The notes under the pieces were generated by a model, which saw only the letters and a program-made list of their open reading frames with translations, did no database searches and had not been told where the DNA came from. A stretch of 64,000 nt of DNA from Phorcus lineatus. Its lineage: Eukaryota > Mollusca > Gastropoda > Trochida > Trochidae. This document shows, one piece after another, positions 20,110 to 64,000 of the stretch. The position numbers and the translations under genes were made by a program. How positions within the stretch are numbered: the first letter of the stretch is position 1; each line of letters begins with the position of its first letter. Location of the stretch: assembly GCA_921293015.1 (NCBI GenBank), contig OV121088.1, forward strand, positions 31,037,645-31,101,644. Direction: 5' to 3'.

Positions 20110-20240
20110 AGATTAAAAGTTGATCATATTTCTCGAGGCAGTGCCCATTTCCCAATCAGCTGCAAACCTTCTGTGGAGTTGACATTTGGCTTCAGTTGAT
20201 CTGAGGACGGTTCAAGGCTGTAACCTCAGGGAATTGTGTT
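20110..20240 (-). pseudogene. Decayed copy of the array gene terminal exon
   Basis: On the minus strand this matches the exon at 24982-25082. The acceptor 'ggttacag' and the codons for SSDQLKPNVN are retained. A 1-nt loss before this and an indel after it break the frame, although the alternative frame still reads RRFAADWEMGTA. It is a frame-disrupted relative of an open exon. Confidence 0.55.
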
Positions 20241-21142
20241 GAAGCATTACGATGACTGAATATGTAAAATGCCATCCATTAAAGCATTCCAAATATCAGG
20301 AACTTGGTTTTCAACAAAGAGTTCATCAGAGTTATAGAGTATTCTTTTCATCATAGACAGACACAAGGAACTATATATGTGTCATGGCCGTCATGCATTA
20401 GTGCGGAAAATGACCACCAATTCTCTTTAGTTTCCACGATCAGGCCCGAAACTTTTGGGACACCCTTGTATGGGGAAACCAATTTCGCATTTTTTTCAAA
20501 TTGGGTTTCAATATAAACTCAACCTAACGATTTTAAGATTACGAGACATTATTGCAAAAGTTTAGAAAATTAAGATTTTCAAATGTCTTCCCATTTTTAT
20601 CATCCATACGATATTTTTTTTATTACCAGTGTAATCAAAATTTTGTTGAAATATTTTTGACATCTGATATGACATCATGTTCTGCTTATGATTTTGTATC
20701 CTAAAGGGGACGGTGGCATTTGACTGAAAGTAAATTTTTATTAATTTTCCTTTATGATATATTTTTTTTAACATTTCCAATTTGATTTAATCTGTTCATA
20801 ATTTGTAATAAGGAATTTTCTTAATCAATGCATGTAAATTTTGGTTCATATGATTTCATACATGATTGTCATGAACAATTACATGACGCATATTTTTTTC
20901 TCAAAGGTTGTAGTTAAATGCTCCGTTTGCCCTTCGATGAAAGGAGATTTGGGTTTGTGTTACATAACTTATGTTACTACTTGAATGTTACATTGAATAA
21001 ACTGTTAAAATCTTGCCCTTTTTCAAACAAAGTTTCAAGACATACTATAAGCTGATTTAAACGGTATATGATTTATTCTCACTTGGGTAATACCAATATT
21101 GAGGCACCAATGATAAACTGATATAGTTATGACATGGGCAAT

Positions 21143-21770
21143 TACAGCTGCATGTCAAAAGTTCGTGCACATACCTGAATATACTAGAGCAAATATCATG
21201 TAATTTGAGATGCCTTTGAGGTATCGTAGCGTTGCGAAAAAGAAACGTTAATATTGAATTTTCAATACAATATGCAGATCCTTCTTCTTTATGGCAAATG
21301 TTTATCGTACCCCCACAATTACCCGTAACAGTTTTGGCAGGCCATTGAAGTGACCAGATGTCAAAATTCCGAAAACACTAATATTTATTTTTCTCTATAA
21401 AATTCTTTATGAGTTATCTACTTCTTTACAAATTAGTCACGTTTGTTCCTTAGCACAAAGTCAATGTCATTTGGTTGGTTTTAATCTGAGAGAGTTGATA
21501 TGAAAAATTTCATTTGACATTTGTCGAAATTGAAATTTCGAAAATATTACCCCTTCTGTCTTTATCAATATGTCAAAATTCGATGTTTTGCACGAGAGAC
21601 CAGACGATCACAGAATCAGTTCAACAAAGGCTATTTCACACATGGACAGTAGGTGATCCATTGTCAGTTTTGCTGAAGTTATTCTATTGACGTTGAAACG
21701 AAACCCAAATTACATGATATTTGCATTACGATTCATTGGTAAGTGAACAAACTTTCGGTATGCAGCTGTA
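21143..21770. mobile_element. 628-bp Tc1/mariner-like MITE
   Basis: The termini are inverted repeats of about 60 bp starting CAGCTGCAT (left 21145, right ending 21768), both containing 'gcaaatatcatgtaattt', and flanked by TA on each side. TIRs starting with CAG and a TA target duplication fit the Tc1/mariner group. No transposase frame is present. Related sequence lies at 28640-28703 (one end) and 43344-46537 (opposite orientation, interrupted). Confidence 0.75.
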
Positions 21771-21959
21771 CATAATTTCCTCTCCTTTGAGAGTTATCAA
21801 AATACATCTGTCTATTTTCTAAACATAACTATGAACAATGTGTGTGAACGATATTAAGAGTTTCTTAACTTCTTATAATAGAAGTCTAAATATTTAAACC
21901 ATAATGTGATAAAATTTGACAATTTGATGTTAAAGGCGTCTTGCGTCACCTTTATCTAA

Positions 21960-22690
21960 TAGAGAATAATGTTGTTGATATCCTACATGGCTTTGTAATT
22001 CAGTTTATTAGAACCTTTGCTGTCAGTTTAAAGTGACTTCAAACAGAATACAGAATCAAGCCAGAATGCTACATTGTATAAAACAGTAACTTTAACCAAT
22101 CCAACCTGAACATTTTCAATTAACTTTGAAACTTTTATATATTTAACCCAATTCCCCATTGATAAAGGGGGTATTATGTGATGTTTGTATTAAATTGAAA
22201 CTACCATGATGTCTCAAGCTATAACGCTTGCGTCATACCAGACGTTGTTAAAGGTTGACGATAAATAACGTTCATAATTCACTTGACACTAATAATATCA
22301 ATATAATATCATAAGATTTATAATAGATAATCCGTTGTAAGAATAATGTTATCAGTTATTAATTATGATTATAACTACCAAAATTTTCTGAAAATGTTGC
22401 TTTCTTTGATGACATTTTATCCCTATTTTTACTTACTAAGTTAACCAATGAATGAAAATACAAGCGTATATAAGTTAAATTATCATTTCCTTTGTATGAT
22501 CCTTAACCCTAGATATTCGCATTGTACTCGAGTTCGATTTATGAGAAATCAGCTGATTTGAAATACTTATTTGAGAAACAATTGATCTTTTTGAGATGAG
22601 ACACTGGCACATTATCATTGACTTGGAATGTCATTTTCACAATAGGAAGCATACTTTGTTCCCTCTCTTGTTTCTGTATATACTTTTTTA
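21960..22690 (-). pseudogene. Array unit fragment with decayed basic exon
   Basis: Aligns with 48850-49735 in the same order and orientation ('cagtttaaagtgacttcaaa', 'atacagaatcaagccagaat', 'cttgcgtcatacca', 'atcagctgat', 'cactggcacattatc'). The region matching the basic exon at 49000-49050 (about 22085-22135) keeps its donor side ('gttcag' then gt) but has frame changes. The cysteine exon seen at 31222-31310 is largely deleted here. Confidence 0.6.
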
Positions 22691-23449
22691 TTTATAGTTA
22701 TAATAGATAAAGCTTATGGTCCAATATCAAAGCATCTGATGTGCAGGCCAGAATCTGAATATCAATACGTGATATTCAGACTTTACTTACTATCCACCCA
22801 CCTTTGAATACTACTTGTATTTAAATTGTCCCTTCCAAGTTTCTTTTCAGTATACCCGAGAAAGTGCATCATATGACTTTTACGAAACGAGTCTGATTTT
22901 TTCGTATTACCCGACTCTAATTAGTCGTGTAACAATGGAGATAAATACATATTTGTTTTATTTTAGGTGTGTATGTAGTGCATTTTAAAAAAAAGTAAAA
23001 ACCTAAAAGAATCCAAACGAGGATATACGTAAAAAGATTATGTAATTCTAATATAAGTTTGTGTATTTTTCATACTGAACTCAGAAATTTATCATTAATT
23101 GAAAGCTGAGGACAGATTTAGCTCAATCAATGTGTAGAGCAACCATTAAATGCTCTCTGCCGATGTAGGCTTCAAACAGTTACATGTAATTATTTACGTA
23201 AAGACCCTGACCTTTTGATGTATATAGGAAAATAAGGAATTGTTAATCGTTGCATTATGGCATGTGTAAACTTTGTTTGACATTGATTATAATTTGATAG
23301 TTTATTTAAAAATGAAGCCTCTGCCAGACATTTTAAAAACATTTTAATCCACGAGTATTTGTGAAAAAATCACTGGATTCATTTCGAACAAATATTAATC
23401 ACAAACATTGCCATTAACAACAAACAAAACACCCATTTATTATTGGTAT

Positions 23450-24150
23450 GTTGCCCCCTAAGGCTTTTTCTCTTTAGAATTAGAAATCTCCATATCTGTG
23501 AAAAGTGTTATTTCTGCATGTTTGGAATTTGCAGCAAGGGAGTTATTACACGGAAAATTTAAAGGATTACCATTGATACATTGTTTGTTTGGTGAAAAGC
23601 AATACTTGAATCTTTGATATCGATCTCTTTTGATGTTTCGAAACAGAAAAAAAATGTTTATCTCATAAAATTTCTACGTGCTTAAAGGCGTAGGGCTTAA
23701 TTTAGTGTATGTTTTAGGGTTCAAATATGTCTAACCTCATGGATGGTGTTATTTGATCGTGAAATAATGGTTGTTTCTGAAATATAGCATTTTAACCCTT
23801 ATGAGTTCAATATAGCGACAATAAACAGGCTAAATCTTGATAAGTCTAAAAATCCGGACCATGGCGTCAATGAATCAAATATTATTTCGGAAACGTATTT
23901 ACAGCAGACACGTCAAATATATGTTGGTGAAGCTTAGTTGTTCATTTAACAAATATACCTGTAAATGGAACCAAATATTTCGACTACTTAACATTAAATC
24001 GCCGTTTACAATTGTAAACAAGAAAATATCACGATTTTGATATTGTTGAGGCGAAAATATAACTCTAGAGGAGAAATAAAAACAAAATTTATGAAACTCT
24101 TTGTCAATCTAAACAAGCGCCACAAAAGAATGTCATGTTCACATGAGATA
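23450..24150. repeat. Array module also seen at 14.64-15.11 kb
   Basis: Shared blocks include 'tttctgcatgtttg', 'aaaggattacc' and 'gccacaaa'. On the minus strand it lies 3' of the terminal exon at 24982-25082, so part may derive from 3' UTR or intergenic spacer of the array unit. Confidence 0.55.
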
Positions 24151-24981
24151 CAGTAACTTATTTAGGAATTATATTCTCAGTTGTTCAGGTACAACCATTT
24201 TGTCCCCCCAATGCGAGATTTATTATTTTGTTCTCCTTGACACTGTTACTCATTATTTAGTAGCCTCCATGTTTTATTTATTTTTTTTAAATGGTAATAA
24301 TACGTTTTCTCTGGTTAAATTTGGATTGAACAATTTACTTACAACCATAATAAATAGGAAGGGAAACGTCATTTGAATCGAGCTCTCCTTAACACATTAA
24401 CACATTAGCATCTTGTACCAATTTTTGGACTAAACAAATACACCTTGAGGTCATTTAAACATTTTAGTTTATAGAGTCAAATGCTTTCTTACAATGCACG
24501 CTCCTGTGTCTTAAATGATCTTTTGAAAATTTGCATTATTGAATGTTTTTGTATAATGTGTATTGTATCTATTTTTGTGTTAATCAAAGATATCAGAATT
24601 AATTTATGGTGAGGGTTTAACATCCTTAAGAAATCAAATTGTTCTTTTTGCATGTTATTGGACAGTTTCATGTCAAATTATGGATAATATCTTTGTGACT
24701 GAACCATGACATGCTTCGTATTCTTTCATAAATACACCCTATTCCTCTTGTAGAAAGATTATTGATATCTAATATTTGATGTTAATTTGTAATTTGTGTT
24801 TCAATAACGTTAATGTATTATCTTTTAGATTAACACCTACGCTTTATTGCTCCTAGAAGCATTTAGCAAACGTTTAGATACAATATTCAATTGCTGAAAC
24901 TTGAAGACTTTGACACTGAAAAATGAATTGCTAGATTATCTGTCAAATGCTGTCTATTAGTATGTCTCGTGGGATTAAAAC

Positions 24982-25082
24982 TTAATTATTTTGTCTCCTG
25001 GCTGTGCCCATCTCCCCATCAGCTGTGAAACTTCTTGTGAATTTGACATTTGGCTTCCATCGATCTGAAGAACGCTTCTTGA
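24982..25082 (-). CDS. Candidate terminal exon of the array gene
   Basis: On the minus strand a pyrimidine-rich stretch and acceptor 'gtgttgacag' precede two bases and 32 codons beginning KKRSSDRWKPNVKFTRS and ending ADGEMGTARRQNN, then TAA. Two further copies (51649-51765 and 20110-20240) keep matching residues and the acceptor, and changes between copies often spare the amino acid pattern (KRLSDQLKPN in the 51.7-kb copy). The product is Lys/Arg-rich. I do not recognise the family. No transcript evidence is available, so this may be a relic with an intact frame. Confidence 0.42.
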
Positions 25083-27640
25083 CTGTCAACACAGTGCAGG
25101 AAGGTGAAGAGTGGTGAAAGTTGATATTAGAAACATTTCCTCCATTAACAGAAAAGCTGTCAAGGTACCAAGAAAAAGGTTGGTAAGATTATCTGAAATG
25201 TTGGAATTAAAGCATAAATCAAAACATGGATAGACCAAATCCTTTAATTCACTTGGAAAATATTGCTGAAAGCATTTAAGAAATCTATCTCATATTATAA
25301 AGTGGACACACTATTTTAGGGTAATATGAATACTTACGATAGATTTTTCATCAGTTTCATAATTTGAAAAAGTTAACCTTGTTGGTGAATATTATAAAAA
25401 TGTATCATATATCTGTAACTATTTCGTTATATATTTATTCGAGCCATGAACAAAGTCAAACCGAGATAAACCTGAATCTTAAATTAAAAAAAACAACATT
25501 TCCAAAATAATTTCTCTCATGTGTTGATAAGAAAAATGAACCACATAATTGTAACATAGATCAATAAATATGTCTTTGAATCTTGAAAATATCTAACTTT
25601 TCTTTACATAGACTACAATATTAAGATTTATTAACACTACAACCATATTCTTGATAGAAGGTTTGAATATGATGTTTAGATGCTGATCTTCGCTGAAAAT
25701 AGATTTTGATGTTTCTCCCCAATCTCACTAATCCGTTGCTAGATGACAATTATATAAATATCCCTTTTAAAGACATTGGTAAAATGATAACGATATATAT
25801 ATGTATATTCTTATATCACTTTAGCATTACAGTCATTAAGCGTAAAGATACATGGGAGGGGGGGGGGGGGGGGGTAGTAGTTGAGTCATTAAAAACCAAT
25901 TTCAGCATGGTAGATTTTAATTAATATTACCAATCGAGGTCTAAATATTCACAATGATGTGGTTTCTACCTCACATCCTGTATTTTACTGGCATGATTAA
26001 TTATGTATATCTCAGGTTCCCTACTTTTTACCTAACAGCACTGTATTCAGATTCTTAAGCTGTGAACACAGTAGCAAATAAACATCTATATAACCTTTAT
26101 AAAAATATCATTCATTCAAATAAACTTAATAAAACTTATTGACATTAGATAATCGGAATCTTTTTCAGCAGATCTGGAATGTATCATTATCTGATGAAGT
26201 AGACATGATCAATTACCATACTTTATGTACCATATTTTTACTCCTTTCTTATTGAAAATGATATTTTCGATATCATCATGATGTGTTTTCATCTTTATTC
26301 AATAAGGACAAGCTTCCTTTCTGTCATTGTTATATCCGTGTTGTATCAGAATAGGATATAATGGTGTTTCTTCTCAATTAGAATAATGTTGAAACTTGCG
26401 TCTCCATAGCTTTAGATAATGAAATTAATTAGATCAATATTTACTATTATCTTCAAAACTTTATCATATTATAGCCACTACATTACAGTTTTCTATGCAA
26501 AATATTACATTGGACAAATAATAGATTTTGTGTCAGATAAAGCTCATATAGCTTTTTATGAGGTGAAAAGTTAATCATCAGTGGTAATGTGAAGTTCTTT
26601 CAAACCATGCATGTGGTATGATTTGGAGGGCAATTTTAGGTTGAAGCATGATAGCTTATTATATGAATGTCAACAATTCATTGAGTAATTTGAATCAAGA
26701 AATCATTCGCGCTACAATGGTTTTCAACACGGAATGTTTGTCAGAGTTTCGTAGAATTTTTTGTAATGCTGACACGAGTGCAAAAGCCACTGATTGTTGT
26801 ATTTGGAATGCTATTTATGAATCTTCCTTTCTTCAAAGTTTTCAATGAAGATTAAAAAAACTCTAAATATTTGTCTTCCTGAAAATTTGTTTAATGACCA
26901 AACAATTAAATGAATGAATGAAAATATTTTTGAGGCTTGAAAAATTTCCATTCGTATCTTTACTTACTTTATTTACTACAATATTTTCTGATTTAATACA
27001 ATGTTAAGTTTATTGATATGACGTCATCTTTTTCTATGACGTTGAACTTTAACTTTTATGACCATCTATGCTAGTTGTGTTTTCCTAAACTTCTTTACTG
27101 CTCAGATAAGATAGTATATTTGGCCCCTTAACATTTATTTTAAGAAGCTCTTCTCACTCTCTTGAGATACAATTATTCTGGCACTAATGTCGCAATCACT
27201 TCAGTAATATGAGTAACAACACAATATGTTTCTTGTCAGGATTTAAATTTGAATACATAAGTATGTGAATACATTTTACAATTTTGTTATCATTGATATG
27301 TGAGTTGTGTTTCTATTTGTAATTTGATATAAATTGTTCATTAACTTTTCCTGATAAAACTTTAACTAAGACCAATAGAATGCCTTCAATTACCAATTTA
27401 TACCCCGATTATTTATCTGCAAATCCATGCAGAAAAATACCATTTCATGTTTTGTATTGAATTGGAAAAGGGAAGTGTCCACTTGAAAACATAAAAGCAA
27501 TACAAAATATCCTTAAGGAATCAAATATATCATGTCATTTTTCTATGGACAAAGTGTTTAAGGTACGTTAACCTTGGTAATTATGGGCTTGAATTCTGGT
27601 GTTTTGAACATGCCCGTTTCATACAACATTCCTTTTTATA
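25083..27640. other. Spacer, no gene seen
   Basis: AT-rich; contains an 18-base G run ending at 25874. The frame at 26648-26848 has no recognisable domain. Internal exons of the array unit between 28.0 and 25.1 kb could not be found. Confidence 0.4.
25854..25874 (+). repeat. Poly-G tract
   Basis: GGGAGGG followed by an uninterrupted G run in AT-rich surroundings. Possible quadruplex former or sequencing-length artefact. Confidence 0.9.
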
Positions 27641-27983
27641 AGAATACAGCTGGTGTACGAGTATGGTTTGATACAGCTGATCTGGCAGCCACCATGACGA
27701 GAGTCTGGACCCTTCAGTTTCTGTATTCACCCAGATGCTTGTTAATGGTAAGATCATCTCAAATGCTGTATGACAAATATGCAGTGATGTGAAGGACGAG
27801 GGTTAAAAGCATCTACTTGACAAATTGCTATTATATGTCTCCACTTATAGAGCACTTCCATAGAGTAGATTGATATATCTGCTTTCACAAAAATACCATA
27901 GCCGTTGAACATCAAGTATATTACTTGCACTGGTACACCAACTTAATGTATCTATCAAAATTTCATAAAGTGTTGTCAGTTAC

Positions 27984-28039
27984 AGAAGAGCAGATACACT
28001 TGAAAAACATATCACAATAAGCAAAGACATTTGAAGCAT
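27984..28039 (-). CDS. Candidate signal-peptide exon of the array gene
   Basis: On the minus strand ATG at 28037-28039 opens MLQMSLLIVICFSSVSALL, a good secretory signal shape (short n-region, hydrophobic core, small residues at the end), directly followed by a possible donor GTAACT. The homologous site at 46744-46802 reads MHHTSFLFVIFF before a 1-nt deletion; the 32.2-kb copy has lost the start. The flanking homology extends over 27640-28420. The exit phase does not match the cysteine exon's entry phase, so either an exon is missing or this reading is wrong. Confidence 0.3.
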
Positions 28040-28238
28040 GTTATTACATATTTTGACCAGACCCAAAACCAATTTATCGGAGGAAACAAGCCAGACAGTT
28101 TTTCCAAACCAGAGCTTTACAAAAGACCTCTAGGAAATGTAATCGAAACGCACCAGAAAGTGATTTTTTTACAAAGTTTATAACATCTTGTCATCGGTTA
28201 GAGATCATTTGATATAGAAAGGTATTGTGGGTATTATT

Positions 28239-28273
28239 GGGGGGAAGGGGGGGGGGGAGGGGGGGGGGGGAGG
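28239..28273 (+). repeat. G-rich tract
   Basis: Three G runs separated by AA or A in about 35 bp; a strong quadruplex-type pattern within AT-rich DNA. Confidence 0.9.
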
Positions 28274-28639
28274 CCTTTAAAGTTTTCATGATCACAAAAC
28301 AGCTTGGAGTTTGAATGATGTAGACAACTTTACAATGATTGCTATTCCAAAGTTGCAGACGTGTTTTCTGACATTTCTTTCCAGATATACGCTATATATT
28401 GATAGAAAGTTATAACAATATAAGATATATTGTTATGTGATGTTAGTTTAAAACTGATCATAAGTTAAAACAGTAATTTCCAAAAATATGAAAAACAACG
28501 TTACGCATGTCTATGTGGCATTATGTGTTGTTTTTCAAAGTTGTAAATGGTTATAACTGATGATTTTTGAAAAAATATAGAAATATTAGCGTATGTAATA
28601 TCCAGGAGGGTTTATAAGTTAAAATATTTATCATTTACA

Positions 28640-29076: not shown

Positions 29077-29409
29077 TGTTTTGTTAATACAAAAGTGAAA
29101 CAGATGTAATAGATGTGAAATTGGAAGGATGATATCATTAATAACAAAAAATGATAAAATGTTTGAGCTTATCAAGAATAACAAATTCCTCAAATGGACC
29201 TAATTATTGTTATACAAAGATATACACAATGGGTATCTATGCTAGTATTTGGTAATGCTATCGGCAGCCAGTCATCAATCAGACAAATATCATTGTTACT
29301 CTTAATTAGGGCTATATGAATATAAACAGACAAATTATTAAGCTAATACTTCTGTTTTCGTGTTGACAAACTCTTTGAAATTTCATAATAATCAAATAAG
29401 CACTTAACT

Positions 29410-30375
29410 GAAGTGAACTGAACTTTATTACACTCAGGCTGCAAACTGCAGCATAAGAGGTACATGGATATATATACAATGATACATGATACATTACAAT
29501 ACAATACAATAAAAGGCTGACATGCCATTCTGAGGTTAAATATGTTATCTCTTAAAATGCGACATGATTATTTTACAAAATAGTGACAATTTTCTTAGAG
29601 TTCCTAGTTTTTTGGTATTAAACAGAATGTTCATGTTGTGCATATTTGGTCCGATATAAAAATATTTGTGAATATACTTTTTTCTTTCTAGTTCTAATTT
29701 CGGACATAAAAATAAAAAATGAAATTCATCACCAATATCGTCTAAATCACAAAGAGTACATAGCCTGTCAGTTACAGGGATTCGACGCCATCTACCTGTT
29801 TCAATTGGGAGATAATGATTAGAAGTTCGGAATTTCAACAAGTTATTGTAGTGCAAGGAGTTTAGGTATTGTTCAAAATTGAGAGATGGATTTTTAAAAA
29901 CACTATAAGTTGTTGCTTTTGAAGAGGTTTCATTTGTTGATATCCATGTTTGCTGAAAGGTATCTTTTAATTTACTTTTAACAATTGATTTTAGTCAGAA
30001 GATGTTTTTAAAATTTTGAAATTTCCAAATAAAACTCAATCCAAGATCATCGAAAATTGTCTGAAGATACTTCGTCCATTTATATACATATTTGCTAAAT
30101 AAGCAATCGTTGAATATCAATTTATAGACCAAGGTGCACAATTTGGAAAATTTTCCAGATATAAGTTTAGCCCAAAAACATACCATCCTGCTTTTGATAA
30201 CGTTTATAAGAGGGAATCTCCCAAATTCCCCATATACCATATAATTAGGTGTACATTTCCGCAGTGAGGTTAAATATTTAAGAAAACGAAGATGGACATT
30301 TTCAAAACATAAAGTGTTTTCAAAACCCCAAATTTCACAACCATATAAATGAATTGGGGTAAATACAATCAAACA
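29410..30375 (-). mobile_element. 5'-truncated non-LTR retrotransposon (LINE)
   Basis: C-terminal part of a LINE ORF2 followed on the minus strand by about 130 bp of 3' UTR containing AATAAA near the end and a short GTTCA-like tail at about 29415. The insertion interrupts array sequence: modules matching 47.66 kb and 48.0 kb flank it on either side. Confidence 0.85.
29545..30372 (-). pseudogene. LINE ORF2 C-terminal region with one in-frame stop
   Basis: Two open stretches lie in the same frame, separated only by TGA at 29995-29997. The upstream part carries YGCEIWGFEN and PNYMVYGEFGRFPL, the post-RT region of Jockey/CR1/L2-type ORF2. The downstream part has the typical CTLCDLDDIGDEFHFLFLCP cysteine-histidine motif close to the C-terminus. 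RT and endonuclease domains are missing through 5' truncation. One stop and few other defects suggest moderate age. The exact clade is not determinable by eye. Confidence 0.85.
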
Positions 30376-30434
30376 TTTTTAAGTGACAATTTTTAAGTAA
30401 CCCAAGCCAAGAAAATAATTTACTCTCAGTCTGC

Positions 30435-30506
30435 CTTGACCCTTATGTTATCTATTCAGCACGACATAATCCTATTATCAGGTCACACGAGCCAGACAAG
30501 TCTCCA
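30435..30506 (-). pseudogene. Array gene 'SDPCDLI' exon, decayed copy
   Basis: Acceptor 'ccttttag' then codons giving GDLSGSCDLIIG. A stop appears 17 codons in and the donor is GC rather than GT. Compare 60833-60901, where borders are intact, and 63390-63446. Confidence 0.5.
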
Positions 30507-31221
30507 CTAAAAGGGATAATTACACATCCAATTATGAGATAAGAAATCAATAGCCTAAATGTTTACGTGAGATAACATATTCATCAAGTGTGTCTTTTAT
30601 GGTGATTGATGATGTATCAAGCTGTTTAAAGATAATATCATCTTAGCTACGGTAATGTGTGCCGTTATTATATCATATTTGATATAATTTCCATACACTT
30701 ATTATTTTAGTGTTGATTAAATCATTTTCATGAGATGACTTCTGCTTGAAAAAAAAAATGCAAATTTGAAGGGATTTATCATAGCTTCGATTAAATAATT
30801 TCTGTTGTTCATGTCTATTAATTATTACTTTAAATGTTATATTAAAATTTTTGTATAAATACTTTACAAGTCGACTTAACGTAGATAAATGTGATGTCAA
30901 TAGTTTTAATAGACATTTAATAATTTGATTGAAATTGTGTACTTCATGTGTAATAACACTTGTCCAATTTATACACAAATTTTAACAAAGATGTAAATAA
31001 AAAATCTGATCGTAAAATTTACACCAAAATCAATGAAATATAACGAAGTTTTGGTGATTTAATAAAATATGACAAACTTATGGCACATAACTTAATTGAC
31101 CTTTATCTTTAAATTTATCAAAACAACTATGAAATATCACTGCACAATTTCCTATTAAATTACAACAGCTCATAAAGACACTTAAGTATAACTTATATTA
31201 GATATTTAGTCGTCATCTTAC

Positions 31222-31310
31222 ACTGGGACAATGTGATTGCACTCCTTCGTCCTGAATAACATTAAGGATGTTAAAATGAGAGACATTCGCCTCTTCACGT
31301 CCCTGACAGT
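31222..31310 (-). CDS. Candidate cysteine-bearing exon of the array gene
   Basis: On the minus strand acceptor 'agtaatttag', two bases, then 29 open codons beginning CQGREEANVSHF and ending GVQSHCPS, then a strong donor GTAAGA. Copies at 43153-43240 (HLKCNLCQLM, GVQ, SPS before GTAATA) and 49555-49645 (CQRRDRTYVSHLK, LCQLM) remain open in the corresponding frame, although the latter has lost the donor. Entry needs one base from the previous exon; exit is phase 0, matching the basic exon at 49000-49050. The family is not recognised. Confidence 0.42.
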
Positions 31311-31889
31311 CTAAATTACTGGAAGGCCTTGTGTTTCGCTTTTGGAGTGGAGTGGAACAGTGGCACATTATCAATGACTTTCATGTGAAAAGTCATTTCA
31401 CAATGGAAAGGCAGTGGGAAGCATTTTTCCCTTTCTCTTGTTTCTGCTTCATTTGCAATAAGCTAATTATCAAATAGCATTCAAGGTACGAACGGAAGTT
31501 AAAAAGTTCACACTTGCGTGGTACAAGCTTTTGCGATAATGAGGCAGCTACTGAGGGACAGTCAGAAGACGTCTACAGCAATGACAATCTAAAAGACAAA
31601 TGGGCAAACTGAATATATGGGGGTCCAGGGATTTTATATTGAAAAATAAAATCCCTATCACAATCATTGGCTTCTGTTTAATATACACTTCCATGAACTT
31701 ATTGACTTACCCTCGTATCTAGGGCGACCAGGTGCAACAAGGCCTTATCCAATCTACTTTATTGCGATAAAGCTTCGTTAAAGTATCTTTCAAAGAAATA
31801 CATTTCCTATAGATTTTTATCTAAAAAGTAAATCTATCATGATTATACTCTATGATAACACCCATCTGTCCAAATATCGGTTATGGATC

Positions 31890-32420
31890 AACTACAGCTG
31901 AGAGAGCAGTGTTAGATTTACAGTATGATGTCAGAGGATTCTACGGAAGCTGTTCAGTTTCTTTTCTTAGGCAGAAGCTGATAAATGATAAAGTCAATTC
32001 AGATGCTGCAACCATGTATAGAATGACAAGTAAGAGCATCTACTTGTCAAACAGCTGGTATGTTTTCTGCTCCTAAAGTACTTACAGTAAGTAGATTATT
32101 TGTCTGCTTCTATAGATAAGTTCGTTTGTGAACATCAGAAGGTATAAACTCGGACTGGTTCACAAATATCATTGTGTCTATCAAAAGTTGATAAAATGAT
32201 GCCGGCTACAGCAGCATTTGAAAGACATCACAATACTCAAAGATGTTAGAAGCCTGTGATAACATGTCTGTACCAGATTCAAAGCCAATTTTTCAGAGCA
32301 AACAGTCCAGAGAGTTCTTAACAGAGATTTACAAAAATCTTTTTAAAATTGCTTCACATAAAAGAAGCTGATTGATTGTCCTTATCAATCCGACTTCACT
32401 GTCATGAAATATGTCCTAAT
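31890..32420 (-). pseudogene. Array unit 5' module, decayed
   Basis: Aligns with 27640-28180 and 46540-46930 ('gagcatctacttg', 'gaacatca', 'gaaagacatcacaat'), but the start codon and signal-like frame are lost. The plus-strand open frame at 31852-32076 across it is not conserved in the other copies. Confidence 0.5.
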
Positions 32421-33280
32421 GGTAGGCCAGACTACCACTTTAGGTTGTTTATAAAATCAGTTCAGAGGGCATTACCATAAATAAGTTCACGAGACATTTT
32501 ATCACTATACAGAAAAACTAAAATTCGAAGGACAGAAATGAGTTATGTACAGAGTTTTCGATTTTATCGGTTGTAGTTAGTGTTATAAGCTCATATCAAC
32601 TGAGTGAAACAGTAATTCCATGTATTTACTGAGCTTGGTTTATACACTGATTTACTATTACGTATATAGGATATTTTAAAATATTAGAGATGGAAGATGG
32701 TAGCTTTACTCTCAAGTGAAACTGAGACCATACGGAAATAATTCTATCAAAACAACAAAAAGAGAAGAAAAAAATCTTAATATATCTTATAAATAATTTT
32801 CATAAAATAAGGAAGCACTTGAAATTCATCTGTGAGAAATTGTTGTTAGAAACTTACTCTTTATGAATGGTATAGGGGAAAGATTCAACCAGACTGGAAG
32901 AGTGAGAATAATAATTGAAGTGATAGTTGCGCAGACATATTTGTCTGTAATCCACTGAGCAACTTTCAGGAAGAAGTGTATTTCCCTAGGGACTTTCAGG
33001 CTAACTACAACCTTACATGTATGTTTGTTTTCCCTTAATGATAATAAATCAAGGCTTTTTAATGCCTTATCAGACATAAATCAATTTAACTAAACCGCCG
33101 GGCCAGACAGTTTCCGATTTAATATAGAGTTATAAAACACTTTCTTGGCATACAACGTAAATATGAAACCTAATAAAGAAGAAAAAAGTTGCGAACATAA
33201 CAAACAAATACTTGACAAAAACCCCCAACATTTTTGGCATTTCGAAACTGTAGAGTAAGGTTTTGAATTAAATGAATTAT
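32421..33280. other. Array unit spacer up to the DIRS insertion
   Basis: Part (32640-32850) aligns with 49940-50130 ('tggtagct', 'aattcatc'). No gene is seen. Confidence 0.45.
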
Positions 33281-33307
33281 TAAAATCTAAATATTTTAGA
33301 TATTTAA

Positions 33308-33498
33308 AAATACTTACCCCACTTCTTATATTGCATATTACCTATACTTCCGATAAACGATTGGAAAACGTGTTGGAAAATGTCATCCTGTCTTCATACT
33401 GTAAGTCGGGGAATATGACGATGACAACACGGCCTCGTAACCGGAAGGTAACGATCCAATCCGTCACGTGACCACGTCGACAAAATCACATTCCATAT
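33308..33498. repeat. DIRS-A inverted terminal repeat (3' side of element)
   Basis: Reverse complement of 39470-39659 with about one visible difference ('gaagacaggatg' against 'gaagataggatg'). Beyond it, 33281-33307 is unique to this end and is repeated inverted in the internal complementary region. Confidence 0.95.
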
Positions 33499-33552
33499 GC
33501 AGGTCCAACGACGGCCGCCTGAGGGGAGGAAGTGAGACATCGCTGGGCGGGC

Positions 33553-46537: not shown

Positions 46538-46539
46538 TT

Positions 46540-47984: not shown

Positions 47985-48063
47985 CTGTCTTCTTTGATCT
48001 TGTCAGCACAGATCAGCACCAGATCATCTTTTTATCAGGTCACACAGGCCAGACAAGCCTCCA
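47985..48063 (-). pseudogene. Array gene 'SDPCDLI' exon, decayed copy
   Basis: Minus-strand reading GGLSGLCDLIKR then a stop. The acceptor is weakened to 'gtttaag'. Confidence 0.45.
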
Positions 48064-48217
48064 CTTAAACGCATATTAACTAGAATAGTCGCACACAACA
48101 TGGTGATAAAAAGTCAGTAACCTCAAGAGTTAAAAAAGTTCATCTATTGTGACTATTATGTTGATTGATGATATATTTACCTCTTCCAAATGAATACTTT
48201 TTTCCTGTTTTCTTTGA

Positions 48218-48855: not shown

Positions 48856-48999
48856 AGCCTTATGATACCATATATAGCTTTGTAATTCGGTTCATTAGAA
48901 CCTTAGCCGTTGGCTGTCAGTTTAAAGTGACTTCAAAGAGAATACAGAATCAAGCCAGAATCCCATTGTGTATCAAACAGTAACTTTAACCAACCCCAC

Positions 49000-49050
49000 C
49001 TGAACATCTTTTGTCAACTTTCTAACTCTTTGATATTTTACGACAAGTCC
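49000..49050 (-). CDS. Candidate basic 17-codon exon of the array gene
   Basis: Minus strand: acceptor 'tttttcctacag', 51 bases encoding GLVVKYQRVRKLTKDVQ, donor GTGGGG. Phase 0 at both borders fits the phase-0 exit of the cysteine exon, which lies about 0.6 kb upstream in the same unit (49555-49645). The homologue near 22.1 kb is frame-shifted. Function unknown; small and highly basic. Confidence 0.38.
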
Positions 49051-49554
49051 CTGTAGGAAAAATATAGATTATTTAATGTTTTATTAAATTGCAACTGTTA
49101 TGATATATCAAATGATATTGCTTGCGTCATACCATACACCATATTACTTTAGCGTTTGTTTTAATCCCAAGAATTTCACCGTTGATTTTTATTGATAATG
49201 CTGTATAAGCTTAATGGTTTTAAGTTGAAAAGGATTTCATGACATCACAAACTTGATATTCATGAAATATTGTTTTATTTGATAAAAGGTTTCCGGTTTC
49301 ATTTACTAATGTTTGAAAATATAAGCGTTTATAAGTTAATAAATTATAACCTTTGTGTTATCCTCAATCTTAGATATTTTAATTGTATACACAGTACGAT
49401 TTATGAAATATCAGCTGATGTAAAAACATTATTTGAGAAACGTTTGATGTCGCAGGAAACAATGTAACACTAGAGCCTCGTTCGTGTAAAAATGGTCCTT
49501 TTGATTTAGAAGAGCACATGCATAAAGCAACGTTTGGGACAAGCTCACAACACT

Positions 49555-49645
49555 CTTGGGTTCTCATGTGACACATCAGCTGACATAAAGGATGTTTAAG
49601 GTGAGAGACATACGTTCTATCACGTCTCTGACACTCTTGGGTCAC
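49555..49645 (-). pseudogene. Array gene cysteine exon, third copy without donor
   Basis: Open frame CQRRDRTYVSHLKHPLCQLM continuing to ECCELVPN, but the GTAAGA donor seen at 31222 is replaced, so splicing would fail. Confidence 0.45.
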
Positions 49646-49734
49646 TGGGGAGTCTTGTGTTTCTCTTTTTTTAGCTGCGAGTTATAGGTGATGGGACACT
49701 GGCACATTATCGTTGACTTTCTTGTGAAAGAAAG

Positions 49735-49860: not shown

Positions 49861-51309
49861 ATTGGGTCAGACAATCACAAAAAGTTTTTAAAAGAACATT
49901 ACAGCTTAATGAAAGTCTTAGTAAATACATGCGTTTCACAGATTTACTATAACGCATATGGGATATAGTTTACATAACACAGATGAAAAATGGTAGCTAA
50001 ACTCAGGAGTAAATAAAATTGACACAATATTGAAAAAATACCATTAAAGCATTGACAACATAAAGGAACTTGAGTATCCCTTATAAATCACTAGTGGTTC
50101 AAATACTACAACAGTTGTAATTCATCAGTGAAAAGATGTCGTTGGACTCTTACACGTTTTAATGAAGGGTCTGAAGTATTCATCAATCGGTATAAACCAA
50201 ACGATTTTAACAACCACTGTTAAGCTTTTATAAGTATAAATCAACTTGGCTGCAATTTTGTTTTTCTTGGAAATATGTTAATTTCATTTGAAATTTGCCA
50301 TTTACCATTTACCTATTTTTTATTAATAAAAACTATAAACTAATTAAAATGTATCCAATTACTTTTTCCATATCAGCCACTTATAGAAGCAGTTATAATG
50401 TACAATGCACATATGAGATGTAAAAAAAAAGCATTGCTAATCTTGCACTTTTGGCCTGACAATCATCTACCTTCACTTGAGGACTTCATTTATTCAAGTT
50501 TTAATGCAGTCGAGTACTGGAATTAGATGACCCTATAACTTTAATCTTTTCTAACTATATCAACCGCTGACATTAAACAGTTAATACCTTTGTCATGGGT
50601 AAATGTCTTCATGAAAAGAATGGCACCCTAATGTCATTGTGATTTTGAATCATTTCTACAGCCATAATGAAAACCATGTGCATTTAGAAACCGAATTATT
50701 ATATTTTGGTATCTTTTGCATTTTTTTTTGCATTACATTTTTCTTTCTATTGGTGGACAAATAAATTGTGTTAATTGTATAAGGTTTAGGTTTTCTGATA
50801 CTATGATATCGAAAAACAAAAAAGGCTAAGGAAGAGTGAAGAAGTATTTCTTTAAAATTTGGGGGATGTTGAAGACGAAGAAGAATCGTTGTCATTTCAA
50901 ACAATTATAAATCACTAATAAACAGATACCTCTCAAAAATATATCGTGAACAAATGCTTCAAGTTTGCTGTGTCATACATTAATAGCTTATATGCACAAA
51001 GAGCAATCTTACAAAAATGTTTGGAATCCACAAATTTACCTTGCGGTCATCAGGATAAAAAAAAGTCCTAAAAAAACTAAAAACTAAAAAGTCCAAATAT
51101 ATGATATGCAAAGCACGTTTCTGTTTCTGAAAGTAATAACTTACCAATCGATAGACACCCACATAATTGCTTTGAATCTTAATAGTCACTATCGTGCGGA
51201 CTTAACATCTTTTTCAAGTGAAATCGAAAATATCAGTTGTTATCTTATTCGACATGTCTGAACATTTCACTTAAGAGGTGAGATATCAACAGCTATATCA
51301 TATCTATAA
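49861..51309. other. Array spacer, no gene seen
   Basis: 49940-50130 aligns with 32640-32850, and 50385-50465 with 42305-42400. About 50330-50385 corresponds to the uninterrupted DIRS target site. The frames at 50656-50904 and 50980-51189 (minus) have no recognisable domain. Confidence 0.45.
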
Positions 51310-51790
51310 GTATTTTATTACATGTTATTGAACAGTTTCTTACCCCTTTATGAAAGATATTTCTGTGATTTAACTATGATATGCTTATATTCTTTTATTA
51401 GGCTTAATTTATTAAATTTGTACATATACGAACGATTATCATGTGTTACATTTGAAATTAGTTTGTCTCTCTTTATCTTTAATGTGTGTAAGAATTGAAT
51501 TGACGCCTATGATATGAAATTGCAAAATATCCAACGAAGATTATCTTATCATTGCTGGTGAAGAACCATATTCTGTTAGTGAAGCTTCAAGACATCAAAA
51601 TTGAACACGCTATCTGTCAGATGATGTCAATTACTTATCCTCGTGGGATTTAAAGTTAATCATTTTGTCTATTTGCTGTGCCGATCTCCCCAACAGCTGT
51701 GAATCTTCTTGTGAGGTTGAAATTTGGCTTCAGTTGATCTGAAAGACGCTTCTACACTATCACCAAAATGCAAAAGGTGAAAAGTTTTAG
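51310..51790 (-). pseudogene. Array gene terminal exon, second copy
   Basis: Aligns with 24640-25150. The coding remnant reads KRLSDQLKPNFNLTRR and AVGEIGTANRQND then TAA, but a TAG replaces the first full codon after the acceptor. Many amino-acid-sparing differences from 24982-25082 suggest the two diverged while coding. Confidence 0.5.
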
Positions 51791-52088
51791 TCTAAATCAA
51801 GGAAAAACTAAAGGAATGGTATCGAAAATCGAGAGGTATATTATTCATATTAATAAAGACAGATCTTAGAAATCAAAAAGGTGTTTCAAAATAACTGTTA
51901 ATAATGGGTTAATTAGACTAATTAACTTCAATTTAACAAAGATCAAAAGAACATTTTGATCTAAAAACCTTTATATATTGTGTATATCAGCTACATTATT
52001 CTGATTTGGTACCAGAGGCCATGGGTCATTTTGTTATATATATATATATGAAAGATGTTATGAATAACCATTTATATTATTAGAATAA

Positions 52089-52352
52089 CCATCATTCTGC
52101 AATAATGACCCTCGGTTGTAGGTTGTTCCTCTTCATTTTCATTACTTCTCTGATATACTAAGTGTTATGTTCTTGTCATTTCAAACTACTTTAACGACTC
52201 TCGTGCATTCATAACGATATCATTTTCCTTCATTCAGACTAATTCATTTTTTACTTAAATTTAGTTTCATATCAGCATATATATATCTTCTATCAAAGGA
52301 TCTATAAAGGCATCTTACTAATATTATACATTTTGATCATCAGAATCGGTTT
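52089..52352. repeat. 264-bp repeat, partner of 48405-48668
   Basis: Near-identical over its length ('gtaggttgttcctcttcatt', 'cattacttctctgatatact', 'cataacgatatcattttcct'); no terminal repeats are visible. Confidence 0.92.
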
Positions 52353-52588
52353 CACCAGATACTGAATGTTTGATTATCTGGTAGACTATCGATTACAAAA
52401 TTCCGTGTTTATGAACAATGTATTGGAAATAATATCTTAGATATGTTATGATGTGGTGTATAATCAAATAAAGTCCAGCCCCTTTCTCTAAATCTAAATC
52501 GTCATTTCAGAATATTTTGTTTGATGGGCGATGTTATTCCATCTTATCTGAAATAATTGTCCATGTTATGTCACAACAACTTAAGTCA

Positions 52589-53983: not shown

Positions 53984-58200
<4,217 letters not shown>

Positions 58201-58249
58201 CAGACAGAAAGTCAATTTAACAGGGCAACACGGGTCAGACATTTCTCCA
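58201..58249 (-). pseudogene. Array gene 'SDPCDLI' exon, decayed copy
   Basis: Acceptor 'ctgtttag' then GEMSDPC, after which the conserved pattern is lost (CPVKL). Confidence 0.4.
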
Positions 58250-59797
58250 CTAAACAGATATTTATAAAACACATCATGTAACAAGATTGTAAAAGTCAGA
58301 GTAAGTAATTGCATCATTGATTAACAAATTATTTACCGATGTACATATCAGGACTTTTTCAGAGGTAAGAGATTTGGATATAAAGATTTTTTTTTGATGA
58401 AATAAACAGTGAGGCATTTGTTTTGGTTGTGAACATTATCTTTTACTAACAAATAAACTATAAATGTGAATACTGACTGACAGTACAAAACAATTTAAAA
58501 GATTTTAATCATAACATTTTCAATTCTGTTTATTTACAGATAAGGTCAGAAAAGTTGATATCAAGAAGTATAAATTCATGAAGATGACGTCACCCTTTTA
58601 AGATAACAGTTCAAAGCAAACCTTGTCCCTGCCAAATTGAATAATAGAAATATCATGTGATATGTGTGAAGAGGGATGTATTTTTCATTTTATATATGAA
58701 TATCTGAATATATAAATTTTAATTTCTGCTCTGCAGACTTTTCTGAAAGAATTTCTCAATACCTTTGTCAAGACACAAGGCCTAGGGTCAGATAAAAATA
58801 TATAAGAAAACGTTGTCATGGAAAAAAGTGCACGTAAACATGAACGTGCACAAGCATTCCATTTTAAGCTTCGAAAACATCTCTTAATCATCAAATATAT
58901 ATATTATATATTACAGAGTTCAAATTAAAGGAGCACACAGTAAACTTATAAATGGTGTTATTCAGTCGCGAAGTATGGTTTGTATCTTAAAAGGTGTTCT
59001 CAGAAACATTATTGCTGAAGCTTCATAAATCGTAGTTTCATTTTCAATATGTCAAAAGTGTTATGCCTGTAAAATTCAATGTTATTAAATAGTTTTTCCG
59101 AATTATCACAAAACTCTAGTTTATCTTATTTATAAATCAGCTTCTCATAAATAATTTTGAGCCTTTTGCAGTCTTAAAAAAGTTTCGGTAAACATTGAAA
59201 TATAACTTATAAAAAGTAAGGATTCTTTTCGGTTTACCGTGTTATTAACTGAAATTTGATTTAGATTTGCCGCACTATTACCTTATGATAAAAATGTGAT
59301 TCAAATCTTAATGAAAAATCTTTATAATTTGTCGATATTAACTTTCATATTTCTTTTTAATGATAATTGATAAACCAACATGTTGTTTGATCAAATTCAA
59401 ATAGAAAATTATTACAGTGACTTTGATGAAGTGACAAGTTTTGACGAATATATTTAACCTAATTCTTTTGTATGTTATAAGTTAGATAATAAGATAATTA
59501 ATTTACCTCTAATCGAAAAACACTAGACGCCAATTGCTTACAGTTTTAATCGTGCACTTGTATTCAAATTATTAGTATGATTCTTAAATTTTTAATCATG
59601 GATTGAGTACTTCATACAGTGGCAGATGCTTGTAGGTCACATGACTGTCATATGATTAAAAAGCAAGACTTTTAAGACTAGAAATTTTCAATTATAATAG
59701 AAATAAAATGATTTTCCCTTGTAACGACACTTAAGAATTGAAACATAGCTAAATGTCAGCCTTTTAATGTTTATAAAAGAAACCATGGTGGTATGCT
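58250..59797. other. Intergenic, no gene seen
   Basis: AT-rich sequence with only short frames. Confidence 0.4.
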
Positions 59798-60264: not shown

Positions 60265-60832
60265 GGTACAAGCTGGGACTAGGGACTATAAGAATTTTTC
60301 TCAGAAAATCATAAGAATCTTTAGCAATACGACTCCTGAAAAGTAGCAGCACGATTCGCTTCTCTCAAAAACTGGAAAATTTTCTGCTGCAATAATGGCG
60401 ACAAATCATGCCCAACGTCAACTGTCATCTCACGTTATCAATTCATTATCTTGTTTTGGCCTGTACTGATGCCTATAGTTGTCGCACACACCATCACTTT
60501 AACCTTTTATATCGTTCTCCAAGAAACTTCATGATTTTTTGGTCAACTTCAGATTATTAGACCACATATATTTGACTGTATGTGAAATACTTGTCAAGTA
60601 ATAGTCAAGCATTAAAAATTACATTTTATGTACATAAACAGACAAATTATTGACCGAATAGTACAATTTTTGAATTTCCATAAATACATAAGTAAATTTT
60701 CTTGAATGATATCAAGTATTTTTTCATTTTGTGATTGAATAAAGATACATTTTTAATATGCATAAGCACGATCAATACTCTATGAAAATTTATTTTGATC
60801 AAGGACTTAACAATCATGAATCATCAGTTTAC

Positions 60833-60901
60833 CTTGACCCGTGTCCGTTCATTTAAAGCAAGAAATCCTGTTATCAGCTCACTAGGGTCAGACCAGTCCC
60901 A
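60833..60901 (-). CDS. Candidate 'SDP' exon of the array gene with intact borders
   Basis: Minus strand: acceptor 'tatccgtttcag', 23 codons starting WDWSDPSELITGF and ending NERTRVK, donor GTAAAC. Related copies lie at 30435-30506, 47985-48063, 58201-58249 and 63390-63446. This copy is one base shorter near its 5' end than the others, so its true phase is uncertain. Confidence 0.35.
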
Positions 60902-61293
60902 CTGAAACGGATATCAACAAAACTTGCAAGACATAAATTGGAGATAAAAAGTCAATAACCTTATTGTTAAATTGAGATGATGTATTCATTACGTGTGACA
61001 ATTACTAGTCGTCATTATTTACATTGTTCTTTCAAACAAATGTTCTTTGTTGCATTTTCCTATTATTTTCAAAACCTAAAAACAGAGTTTAAAATAGAAT
61101 CAATAAATCGTCAAATGAGAAAATGAAACAAGTCAACAATTTATATGGATTATTCAAAGTGTAGTTGTTTTGATCATCCGGCAACATACAATATATCTAA
61201 ATAAATAATCAATATTTTACATGAGGAGAAAAGTTCTTAAATGTACACTTGTAAATGAAAACAGAGTCAAGGTGCAATCATAGAAGACTTCCA

Positions 61294-61411: not shown

Positions 61412-62271
61412 AGTTGTTGTTATTATTGTATTCTCATTCTCCTTCTTGTTTAGCTACGTTAATGATGAACAATATTTCTTACAAAACTGTTCATTATCAT
61501 TAAACTGTCAAATGCAAACTTTGCTGTTTTAGTTGCCACGTGTACAACTTATGAAATACAATCCTTAATTGATATATATCCTTGTAATTGATATTTTATG
61601 TGTGTTCATAAGACACCTTGTTACGACACGTGTGTCTACATATCAGTATTTTCGAGCGGGAGCGAGTGTCGTGAACATAGTAAGTCATGGGCAGGAATTT
61701 GATATTCTGTTTATTACCGAAGTTGCGAAATCAAAGTAAATCAGATCAACCTCAAAGGCGGATAACTCGCCCTCATTGTATTTGGAATGCATCGTCATAG
61801 TCTGTGACAACTGTGGCGTCAAAGCATTGTTTATTATGTGACAATGAAAAAAGTGATTTTTTGCCCTAGAGCATCGTCTGAAAAATATAAACCTCAATAT
61901 GTTTGCCTCGTAGGCAACATACGTCCAAAAAGCTACCCTTCATCAGTCATCACTTATCATAGCTGCATTTAGTTATAACCAATGTATTCTTAACAAATTG
62001 TCGAATGTGTGATTTGCTTACCCTTATCTGTTGAACATATTGTTAAGCTTTCATTATTCATCTTTTGCCATAAATTATAGTTATCCATTTATGACTTTAT
62101 CTAATACATATTGCCAACATATGACCCTTTCAATTACATTCATATTATTTCAGTATAATATTTCATTACTTTTGTATTCGTGTAATTACAATATTGCATT
62201 TTTATGATCCCATTCATCTACCTAGGATATTACCTATGTTCATTATCAGATAAGATGTTATCCAGTGAGCA
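61412..62271. other. Intergenic, no gene seen
   Basis: Nothing supportable beyond AT-rich DNA. Confidence 0.4.
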
Positions 62272-62388
62272 GGGCCTCCTTTCACAAAGCCTTAAGGTGA
62301 TCGTAAGTCCTGAAGGTAACCTTAGTGCAATGTTAAAGTATGGAAGTTGAGCTTAACCTTAGTTAAGGTTGCTTTGTGAAAGCAGGCC
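62272..62388. mobile_element. 117-bp MITE, copy 2
   Basis: Same orientation as copy 1 about 1 kb away, with the ends GGCCT...AAAGC and complement better preserved. Confidence 0.82.
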
Positions 62389-62921
62389 AAGGACGTAAAA
62401 ACACACACTGATATAGGCGATACAATCTAGGTTGTCATGTTATGTGTTCCTCAAATCTCTGGGGTTTTTTTTAGCGTGTTTAAAGTTTGAAAGCTACATA
62501 ATGTTATAAATACTTTTGACTATTTATTTTAGCTTGTAGTTTACATACGGTCAATAGTTGTATCTGTTACAAAGAAAAAACGTTTTCTATTGAAAGTATA
62601 TTGTAAAAATCTTAAACTGCAAAGTCGTGAAATCAATTCAAATTTCTAAAAGATTTTATATGTAGAGGATCACATATCAGTGATAAAAGAACAATATACC
62701 TTAATACTGGAACAATTGTTAACAAAACTGCAAGTTCATATAAGTACAATGTACTATAGCAACAGAGAGTGTTTGGTCTAGGGTAATTCTTTCTACAAGG
62801 ATCAAAGAACCAGACTCATTTCCTAGCTGGACCATTCATTTCCCTGTCTTGTGTACTTACTGGCGTTTAATATAAGACATTGAATTACATGCCCTGATTA
62901 CTATATATAAATTCAACATCA

Positions 62922-63035
62922 ATGGATACACAACATATGGGACAAGTTGATATTACTGAACTTATATCGGCATTCACATCGACGCTGTCTTCAAGCAACA
63001 GAAAGGCCAAATATGTATTAAGAAGATCAAATCAG
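62922..63035 (+). CDS. Candidate first coding exon of an unknown gene
   Basis: ATG opens 38 codons (MDTQHMGQVDITELISAF, then SSSNRKAKYVLRRSNQ) ending exactly at a consensus donor CAG|GTGAGT, phase 0. It is the only plus-strand frame in this part with codon-like composition and a perfect donor. No homologue was recognised and no second exon is found before the window ends, so it may be chance. Confidence 0.3.
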
Positions 63036-64000
63036 GTGAGTAATTGTTTGCTGGTCAGTTGTTTAGACGTGTATCAGCTATTCATAGATTTAATGATGTA
63101 TAAATAAGACTGTCTTGAGGTGTATTGACAATGTTTAATGTATTATTATATACTTATATTAGAAATTGAGGCATATTTTAAAACATTTTCTGGAATTGAA
63201 AATTATAAAAAAGACATTTGTCACTTCTTTTAATTTTCAAACTATGACTCTCCACTTAATGATTTCGTCTTGAATAGTATATTCAAATTTTCTTCAATTA
63301 CAAGAAAACAAATAACAAATCCATATGACCAAGAATTGAAAACAAGAACAGGAAATGGGCTGTCTAATTTAGTATTGATCCACCACTGTTAATTTGCAGC
63401 AAGAGAGAATCCTTTTATCAGGTCACACGGGTCAGACGTCTCTCTACTGAAACAGATATTAGCTAAATTGTCACACACACATGGGAGTAAAAATACAGAA
63501 TCAAAATAGATCCTTGATTGAATAAATTGATCCAATGTGATGAAAAATTCTTTTTCCAGTAAAACAGTTGATATCACAAAAACTCTTCTGGTATTTGCAT
63601 TCCTTTCATATCAATTCACGTAATTATTCAACACGGTTAAAAAATATGAAAAAGGTTAAACATGGTATCATGGGAGACAGGGCAATGTATTTAAGTGGTT
63701 TAAATTATGAACGTAATATCAAGTTTGTAATATTATAAATAACTTTTGTATATATGATTTTTCAGATATTCAAGACTATAGTGTCAAATTGACTCAGAAA
63801 ATATGTCCCCTTGGAATTGCAAGGAAATCAGGTTTCAGATAAATCTTCCTTTAAGGATTAAAAAAAGAACCAGACCCATTAACTTCTGGCTGGACCTAAC
63901 ACAGAACCTCAGAACTGGAGATTGACATAAGTTTTGAATAACAATCTGGGACATATCAACACATTTTAGATACATCTTCAAAATATGACATCAAAAGTCT
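63036..64000. other. Window end: array remnants
   Basis: Contains a decayed 'SDPCDLI' exon (63390-63446). A block at 63835-63900 matches 62785-62850 ('agaaccagac', 'agctggacc'). Confidence 0.4.
63390..63446 (-). pseudogene. Array gene 'SDPCDLI' exon, best-conserved core
   Basis: Acceptor 'tctgtttcag' then ETSDPCDLIKGFSLAAN and a stop; the donor is missing. It supplies the clearest form of the shared motif. Confidence 0.48.

Follow-up and report, generated by a model that had tools for sequence, protein, structure and literature searches.

A two-armed array of old, apparently non-coding duplicated modules at one locus of Phorcus lineatus, with short cores that may be under selection

This study examined a 64,000-nucleotide stretch of the genome of the gastropod Phorcus lineatus (C13:31037645-31101644, contig OV121088.1, of a 958-Mb genome in 74 contigs; hereafter the window), for which an original prediction made from the letters alone had proposed a tandem array of a multi-exon, possibly secreted gene family on the minus strand. 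Our data supported the array, which consists of modules repeated in a fixed order at a single locus, and provided no support for the gene family. We consider it fairly probable that the locus originated when non-coding DNA was duplicated long ago, both in tandem and in inverted form, and that most of it is decaying, with a few short cores selected as DNA or RNA. The clearest of these cores is that of a module named D.

Layout of the array

The module pairs named in the original prediction do recur in direct orientation. Self-comparison of the window, with identities of 66-68.5%, aligned 21976-22586 with 48863-49448 (68.5%), 24566-25112 with 51231-51785 (66%), and both 27764-28418 with 46539-47142 and 27713-28124 with 31953-32336 (about 67%). 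After masking of a retroelement at 33.25-42.30 kb and of simple repeats, the pairs at E ≤ 0.01 comprised 45 direct and 14 inverted ones, compared with four in a reversed-sequence control, which gave none at E ≤ 1e-4. An inverted-repeat element at 21139-21773, or its relatives, was involved in 8 of the 14 inverted pairs.

Profile search (nhmmer) placed the modules K2, K, G, D, P, Q, X, M, N, S, E and Y in five units, given here with positions in kb. Unit 1 holds P (12.10), Q (14.81), K2 (19.70) and K (20.02); unit 2 holds G (21.97), D (22.58), P (23.06), Q (23.45), K2 (24.57), K (24.88) and X (26.07); unit 3 holds M (27.71), N (29.31), S (30.43), D (31.26), M (31.95), E (32.64) and Y (42.30), the last separated from E by the retroelement. 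Unit 4 runs through M (46.53), N (47.62), S (47.99), G (48.86), D (49.58), E (49.93), Y (50.37), K2 (51.20), K (51.57) and X (52.26), and unit 5 through a short core named SM (58.2), N (60.59) and S (60.83 and 63.38). The common modules kept the same order and strand in every unit, the sole exception being an extra M at 31952-32340, and the copies were mostly 61-76% identical to each other. Self-comparison and profile placement therefore support a tandem array of one orientation and compatible cyclic order. The proposed range of 20110..63446 did not hold as its limits, since the array starts near 12 kb and continues past the window, nor is that range array throughout, as unrelated mobile elements, notably the 9-kb retroelement, lie inside it. 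The module read as SDPCDLI recurs as well; it was found to be one type, a core of about 60 bp common to M and S (the SM core), with 11 copies in the window in place of the five proposed. Ten of the 11 lie on the minus strand, a twelfth match reached only E 0.15, and DPCDL as protein letters occurs once in the window.

Confinement to one locus with two arms

Every match of five module queries in the genome lay on C13 between 31.058 and 31.181 Mb, with two places for G, three for M, two for K, four for N/S (including two pieces that belong to a single copy) and ten for D. These counts are lower bounds, as the search scores only the best candidates; neither the K copy at 51.7 kb nor the M copy at 32 kb was recovered by its own query. 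With 2-10 places per query at one locus, the modules are not a transposon present at thousands of sites; matches at that many sites had been named as refuting the original prediction. The array is confined to one genomic spot as far as searched.

The locus was extended by 100 kb on each side of the window (264 kb; window-based coordinates throughout) and searched with the profiles at E < 0.01. It contained 12 copies of D, 19 of SM, 4 of M, 5 of N, 4 of K and 3 of X, with 2 each of G, E, Y, P and Q, and the left 100 kb gave no match for any of 11 profiles. Eight of the 19 SM copies lie within the window, where this SM profile misses three of the 11 copies, and several of the right-hand SM copies are weak.

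The D copies divide by strand at 76 kb, with three on the left, all minus, and nine on the right, all plus. At E ≤ 1e-10, most pairs inside either arm were direct (18 against 3 inverted for 12-76 kb; 41 against 4 for 76-158 kb), and those linking the two arms were mostly inverted (44 against 5 direct); the counts omit the listed mobile-element places, and some of the remaining pairs are unlisted mobile elements. The left flank shared 50 pairs of mixed orientation with the two arms (27 direct, 23 inverted). The array is made up of two divergent arms, one on the minus strand at about 12-76 kb and the other on the plus strand from there to 144 kb or beyond. The right edge is uncertain: D is last seen at 143.3 kb, duplicated pieces extend to about 150 kb, and matches near 157 kb look dispersed, because the left flank holds them too.

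Coding potential

To judge from their sequences, the array modules show no sign of encoding protein. Only 24 of 140 indels between copies were divisible by three (16 pair comparisons that share sequences and are not independent), and 108 tests of array pairs gave no synonymous excess (lowest p 0.024, with 2.6 tests expected that low). These results support neither a multi-exon gene family nor the statement that the copies differ in DNA while keeping residues. The ratio of non-synonymous to synonymous changes (dN/dS) between copies, which had been proposed as a check and, if near 1 with no transcripts, as a refutation, was largely near 1, ranging from 0.23 to 3.6 across frames in 10 array pairs; the ratio of the G pair was disregarded for its poor alignment with end gaps of 54 and 55 bases. 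When pairs were simulated (60 for each setting), the synonymous-excess threshold was passed by 93-100% of them at dN/dS 0.1 and by 0-2% at 1. The synonymous test was extended to duplicated ungapped blocks of at least 60 bp with at least 8 mismatches across 1-164 kb (n = 234), of which 18 had p ≤ 0.005 where about 7 were expected. All 18 lay within mobile-element stretches (29.5-30.4, 33.9-42.1, 64.7-65.2 and 77.7-78.3 kb), and none of the 234 blocks reached this level in array modules. Since coding stretches of mobile elements were flagged, serving as a positive control, the test works at 57-67% identity.

The exon features fared no better. The signal-like MLQMSLL occurs in one of three M copies; the second lacks an ATG there, and the third has the ATG with a one-base deletion about ten codons downstream. 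The AG that would bound GLVVKYQRV is missing from the other G copy. Pfam scans, in which stops were read as X, found nothing above cut-off on the minus strand at 19.8-33.3, 42.3-52.2, 52.0-54.2 and 54.1-64.0 kb or on the plus strand at 20.0-29.9, 42.3-52.2 and 54.0-63.9 kb; 12-19.8 kb on both strands and 29.9-42.3 and 52.2-54.0 kb on the plus strand lie outside these scans. Below the cut-off, the minus strand gave Atrophin-1 (0.0056) and Type_ISP_C (0.039). In the right 100 kb, 149 of 230 open frames were scanned and yielded mobile-element families, one THAP domain, Atrophin-1 (1.5e-5) and weak matches.

A phmmer search of the K frame at 24.9 kb against PDB gave four capsid or VP1 chains at E 0.13-0.81, which we take to be parvovirus capsids, and a fimbrial chain at 2.1. 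The capsid reading was rejected as chance, because the matching RW is private to the 24.9-kb copy; the other two K copies share CAACTG (QL) in its place. The M frame gave no match at E ≤ 1.

Preservation of the cores

The D core spans about 140 bp in its 12 copies. Across six D copies, identity in 50-nt windows, with gaps counted as mismatches, was 84-93% at about 143250-143400 and mostly 0.2-0.5 outside the core, apart from another peak of 0.70 near 143525. The flanks are homologous, since local alignments of up to 2.27 kb run through the core. In six pairs that share copies, the mismatch fraction was 0.07-0.14 in the core, compared with 0.23-0.37 in flanks longer than 50 bp and 0.09-0.27 in short flank ends (17-34 bp). 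Gap columns numbered 0 of 137-139 in the core in five of the six pairs and 13 in the sixth, and made up 2-17% of the longer flanks; the difference between core and flanks gave Fisher p values of 0.0012 to 1e-7.

Variable columns of D were spread over the three phases as 19, 14 and 19 of 48, 48 and 47, and no synonymous excess was found in any of six frames (p 0.54-0.89; 8 copies other than that at 31 kb, in 28 pairs). The D core is thus preserved, though not as protein. Among 12 alignments of window modules, the best-kept 50 bp gave p = 0.002 for G and 0.014-0.022 for one M, K and S. Core conservation is weaker for K, G, M and S than for D.

Mobile elements and neighbouring genes

The retroelement of about 9 kb at 33250-42300 lies inside the array between E (32.64 kb) and Y (42.30 kb). 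It matched Pfam RVT_1 at 1e-18 and, below the cut-off, the tyrosine-recombinase family Phage_integrase at 5e-5; we take it to be DIRS/Ngaro-like. It is perhaps nested with a second retroelement on the plus strand; G+C in this stretch reaches 0.61. It was most likely inserted after the duplication, because E and Y, which it splits in unit 3, are about 0.2 kb apart in unit 4.

Other elements were also observed. An open frame with a GIY-YIG domain at 17418-18746 is presumably Penelope-like, and a frame fragment at 29400-30380, with 64% DNA identity and 53-56% protein identity to 145.2-146.0 kb, is presumably LINE-like (long interspersed nuclear element). The inverted-repeat element occurs at 21139-21773 and 43341-43784. 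A 270-bp stretch within 48208-48851 is flanked by a 191-bp direct repeat (94%) and has a 97% copy at 52083-52352; together, 48208-48851 and 52036-52352 record a recent event within the old array. The THAP-domain frame in the right flank (64-164 kb) matched at E 3e-14.

To the left of the array, part of a tankyrase gene was found on the plus strand at 1354-3562, with a SAM domain (PDB tankyrase-1, E 1e-24) and a partial PARP domain. The PARP-domain stretch occurs twice, at 3256-3376 and 4845-4973 (74% identical; dN/dS 0.31 in one frame), and the pair would represent either an exon duplication or a broken copy.

Coordinates of the modules

Modules are on the minus strand and were placed by profile search unless otherwise given. 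In unit 1, P at 12104..12233 and Q at 14808..15019, both found by nhmmer, are copies of 23057-23188 and 23448-23650, respectively, and K2 with K spans 19704..20282; this K has three 1-base gaps relative to the other K copies, in the stretch read as KKRSSDRW. Unit 2 contains G at 21971..22598 (two genomic places), with its best-kept 50 bp at about 22020-22069 (94%), a D fragment at 22583..22676, P with Q at 23057..23650, and X at 26067..26357. Its K2 with K at 24565..25148, also recovered by self-comparison, is the terminal exon KKRSSDRWKPNV of the original prediction and showed no synonymous excess.

Unit 3 begins with M at 27712..28418 (self-comparison and profile), which carries an SM core at 28060-28123 and the MLQMSLL site. 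An N fragment at 29307..29371 is followed by S at 30331..30637 (SM core 30464-30524; self-comparison and SM core search), D at 31257..31447 (profile and genome search; one of the 12 core copies in the 264 kb), the extra M with an SM core at 31952..32340, E at 32643..32878, an SM core at 33078..33136 (SM core search) and, beyond the retroelement, Y at 42303..42710. Unit 4 has M at 46532..47142 (SM core 46820-46883; self-comparison and profile), an SM core at 47241..47295 (SM core search), N at 47621..47764, S at 47888..48196 (SM core 48021-48081; self-comparison and SM core search) and G at 48863..49458 with the GLVVKYQRV site. Its D at 49538..49734 (profile and genome search) aligns over 160-213 bp with seven copies beyond the window at 76-82% identity; E at 49930..50177, Y at 50372..50731, K2 with K at 51203..51791 (self-comparison and profile) and X at 52263..52518 complete the unit, the low end of this X overlapping the 97% copy of 48402-48671.

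The only reversed SM core in the window, at 56675..56735 on the plus strand (SM core search), lies in an inverted pair at 56.6/58.3 kb. In unit 5, an SM core at 58203..58268 (SM core search) precedes N with S at 60591..61222, which is 69% identical to 111860-111208 in the right arm in inverted orientation, and a second S at 63209..63671, which contains the literal SDPCDLI and is 74% identical to 110026-109573, also inverted.

Discussion

Based on these results, we propose that a non-coding segment beside the tankyrase gene was duplicated in tandem long ago and would have been turned round at least once, giving two divergent arms. The retroelement and other mobile elements probably arrived later, and point mutations and indels would have let most of the array drift. 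A few short cores (D of about 140 bp and, less clearly, SM, K and G) may instead have remained under selection at the DNA or RNA level; cis-regulatory elements or parts of a non-coding transcript are the likeliest roles. Ancient tandem duplication with inversion would explain the order, the strand and the confinement of the modules, and decay would explain the frame breaks and the islands of alignment. The prominence of the D core in one pair after another is attributed to selection on short cores or, less likely, to local gene conversion; selection on DNA or RNA is the favoured reading for this core.

Several observations weigh against this account. Gene conversion could account for the preservation of the cores, and the peaks in the window modules are modest, eight of the 12 alignments giving p 0.098-0.93 for their best-kept 50 bp. 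Two M pairs had dN/dS of 0.30 and 0.23 in one common frame, and the simulations passed only 37-62% of pairs at dN/dS 0.3 and 20-23% at 0.5. A BLOSUM-based test of 27 ungapped blocks in six frames gave z of 2.6-3.1 in three blocks, one of G and two of S; those of S were on the plus strand, z was lower elsewhere, and the highest value (3.1) came from an S pair in a plus-strand frame containing stops. Values of dN/dS below 0.5 also arise in other frames, and the best M block (synonymous-excess p 0.024-0.030) is within chance given the number of tests. The low ratio of M frame 0 was rejected as a coding signal on account of stops in all three copies, plus frame breaks.

The locus might instead be the graveyard of a multi-exon gene cluster, with the modules as former exons and the copies now pseudogenes. 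Their exon-like size, the AG that precedes the K core in each of its three copies and the low dN/dS of the one M frame in two pairs are in line with this; we nevertheless judge it improbable, as few indels are divisible by three, the scanned array frames gave no Pfam family above cut-off, the frames of the right 100 kb gave the matches listed above, and preservation of the D core after the loss of coding would require another cause. An active secreted family under positive selection would agree with some open frames, such as frame 0 of D, open from NVPS onward in four of the six copies compared (dN/dS 1.11). It is very improbable in view of the frame breaks and stops in other copies, the lack of a synonymous excess among the 28 D pairs, and the start and splice positions that are not kept in M and G. 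Even less credence is given to a dispersed repeat family that is dense here by chance: several genuine mobile elements do share the stretch, but the five queries matched the one locus and the units share order and strand, so that this explanation is refuted unless many distant copies escaped the genome search. A related candidate, D as a tRNA-derived short interspersed nuclear element (SINE), was prompted by the GGATTCGAACTCC stretch in the 49.5-kb copy and rejected because D matches a single locus.

The modules could also be exons of a many-copy non-coding RNA transcribed outward from the centre of the locus, or D could make a small hairpin RNA, which we hold to be rather less probable than the gene graveyard. 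The single orientation of each arm and the divergence of the arms fit this view, and the D alignment folded better than column-shuffled ones on both strands (z -2.9, 1/200; z -2.1, 6/200). The consensus fold of D on the module strand had two-sided change in 3 of 28 pairs, and the opposite-strand hairpin kept 20-22 of its 22 pairs in seven of nine copies. However, the z of this hairpin ranged from -0.16 to -2.62, falling below -2 in one of nine copies, and none of its pairs had two-sided change. No common fold was found for the SM core, and Rfam gave no match at the gathering score in the window or in the D copies at 106, 108, 126, 136 and 143 kb (the 74- and 91-kb copies excluded). At E ≤ 0.5 within 20-64 kb, a single sub-threshold IRES_APC was obtained at 43747-43801 (27.1 of 50 bits).

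Within the favoured account of decaying duplicated non-coding DNA with selected cores, we tentatively suggest a further possibility, namely that the locus is a family of non-coding elements (12 copies of D and 19 of SM in 264 kb), so far seen in this genome only, that is selected as DNA or RNA in two divergent arms; a regulatory hub and a group of non-coding RNA units would be examples. Such a locus was not apparent in the titles and abstract openings of the papers listed by the literature searches. The present results remove a false gene-family call, and such arrays could mislead gene prediction into spurious multi-exon models. Provided that the cores really are constrained, one non-coding element would be present in a dozen paralogous copies within a single genome, and the constraint would be readable within one species and its function testable by deletion.

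Among known systems, dispersed SINEs and miniature inverted-repeat transposable elements are likewise short repeated units, and an inverted-repeat element of that sort lies in the window; unlike them, the array modules match one locus only and keep their order. Clusters of paralogous conserved non-coding elements, or duplicated enhancers, resemble the array in their short kept cores, non-coding DNA and diverged surroundings, but constraint in the array is inferred solely from copies within one genome. Tandem and inverted low-copy segmental duplications share with the array kilobase modules that are colinear at one locus, opposed arms and insertions of mobile elements; the array differs from them in being old, as its mostly 61-76% identity indicates, and in having short cores preserved above the rest.

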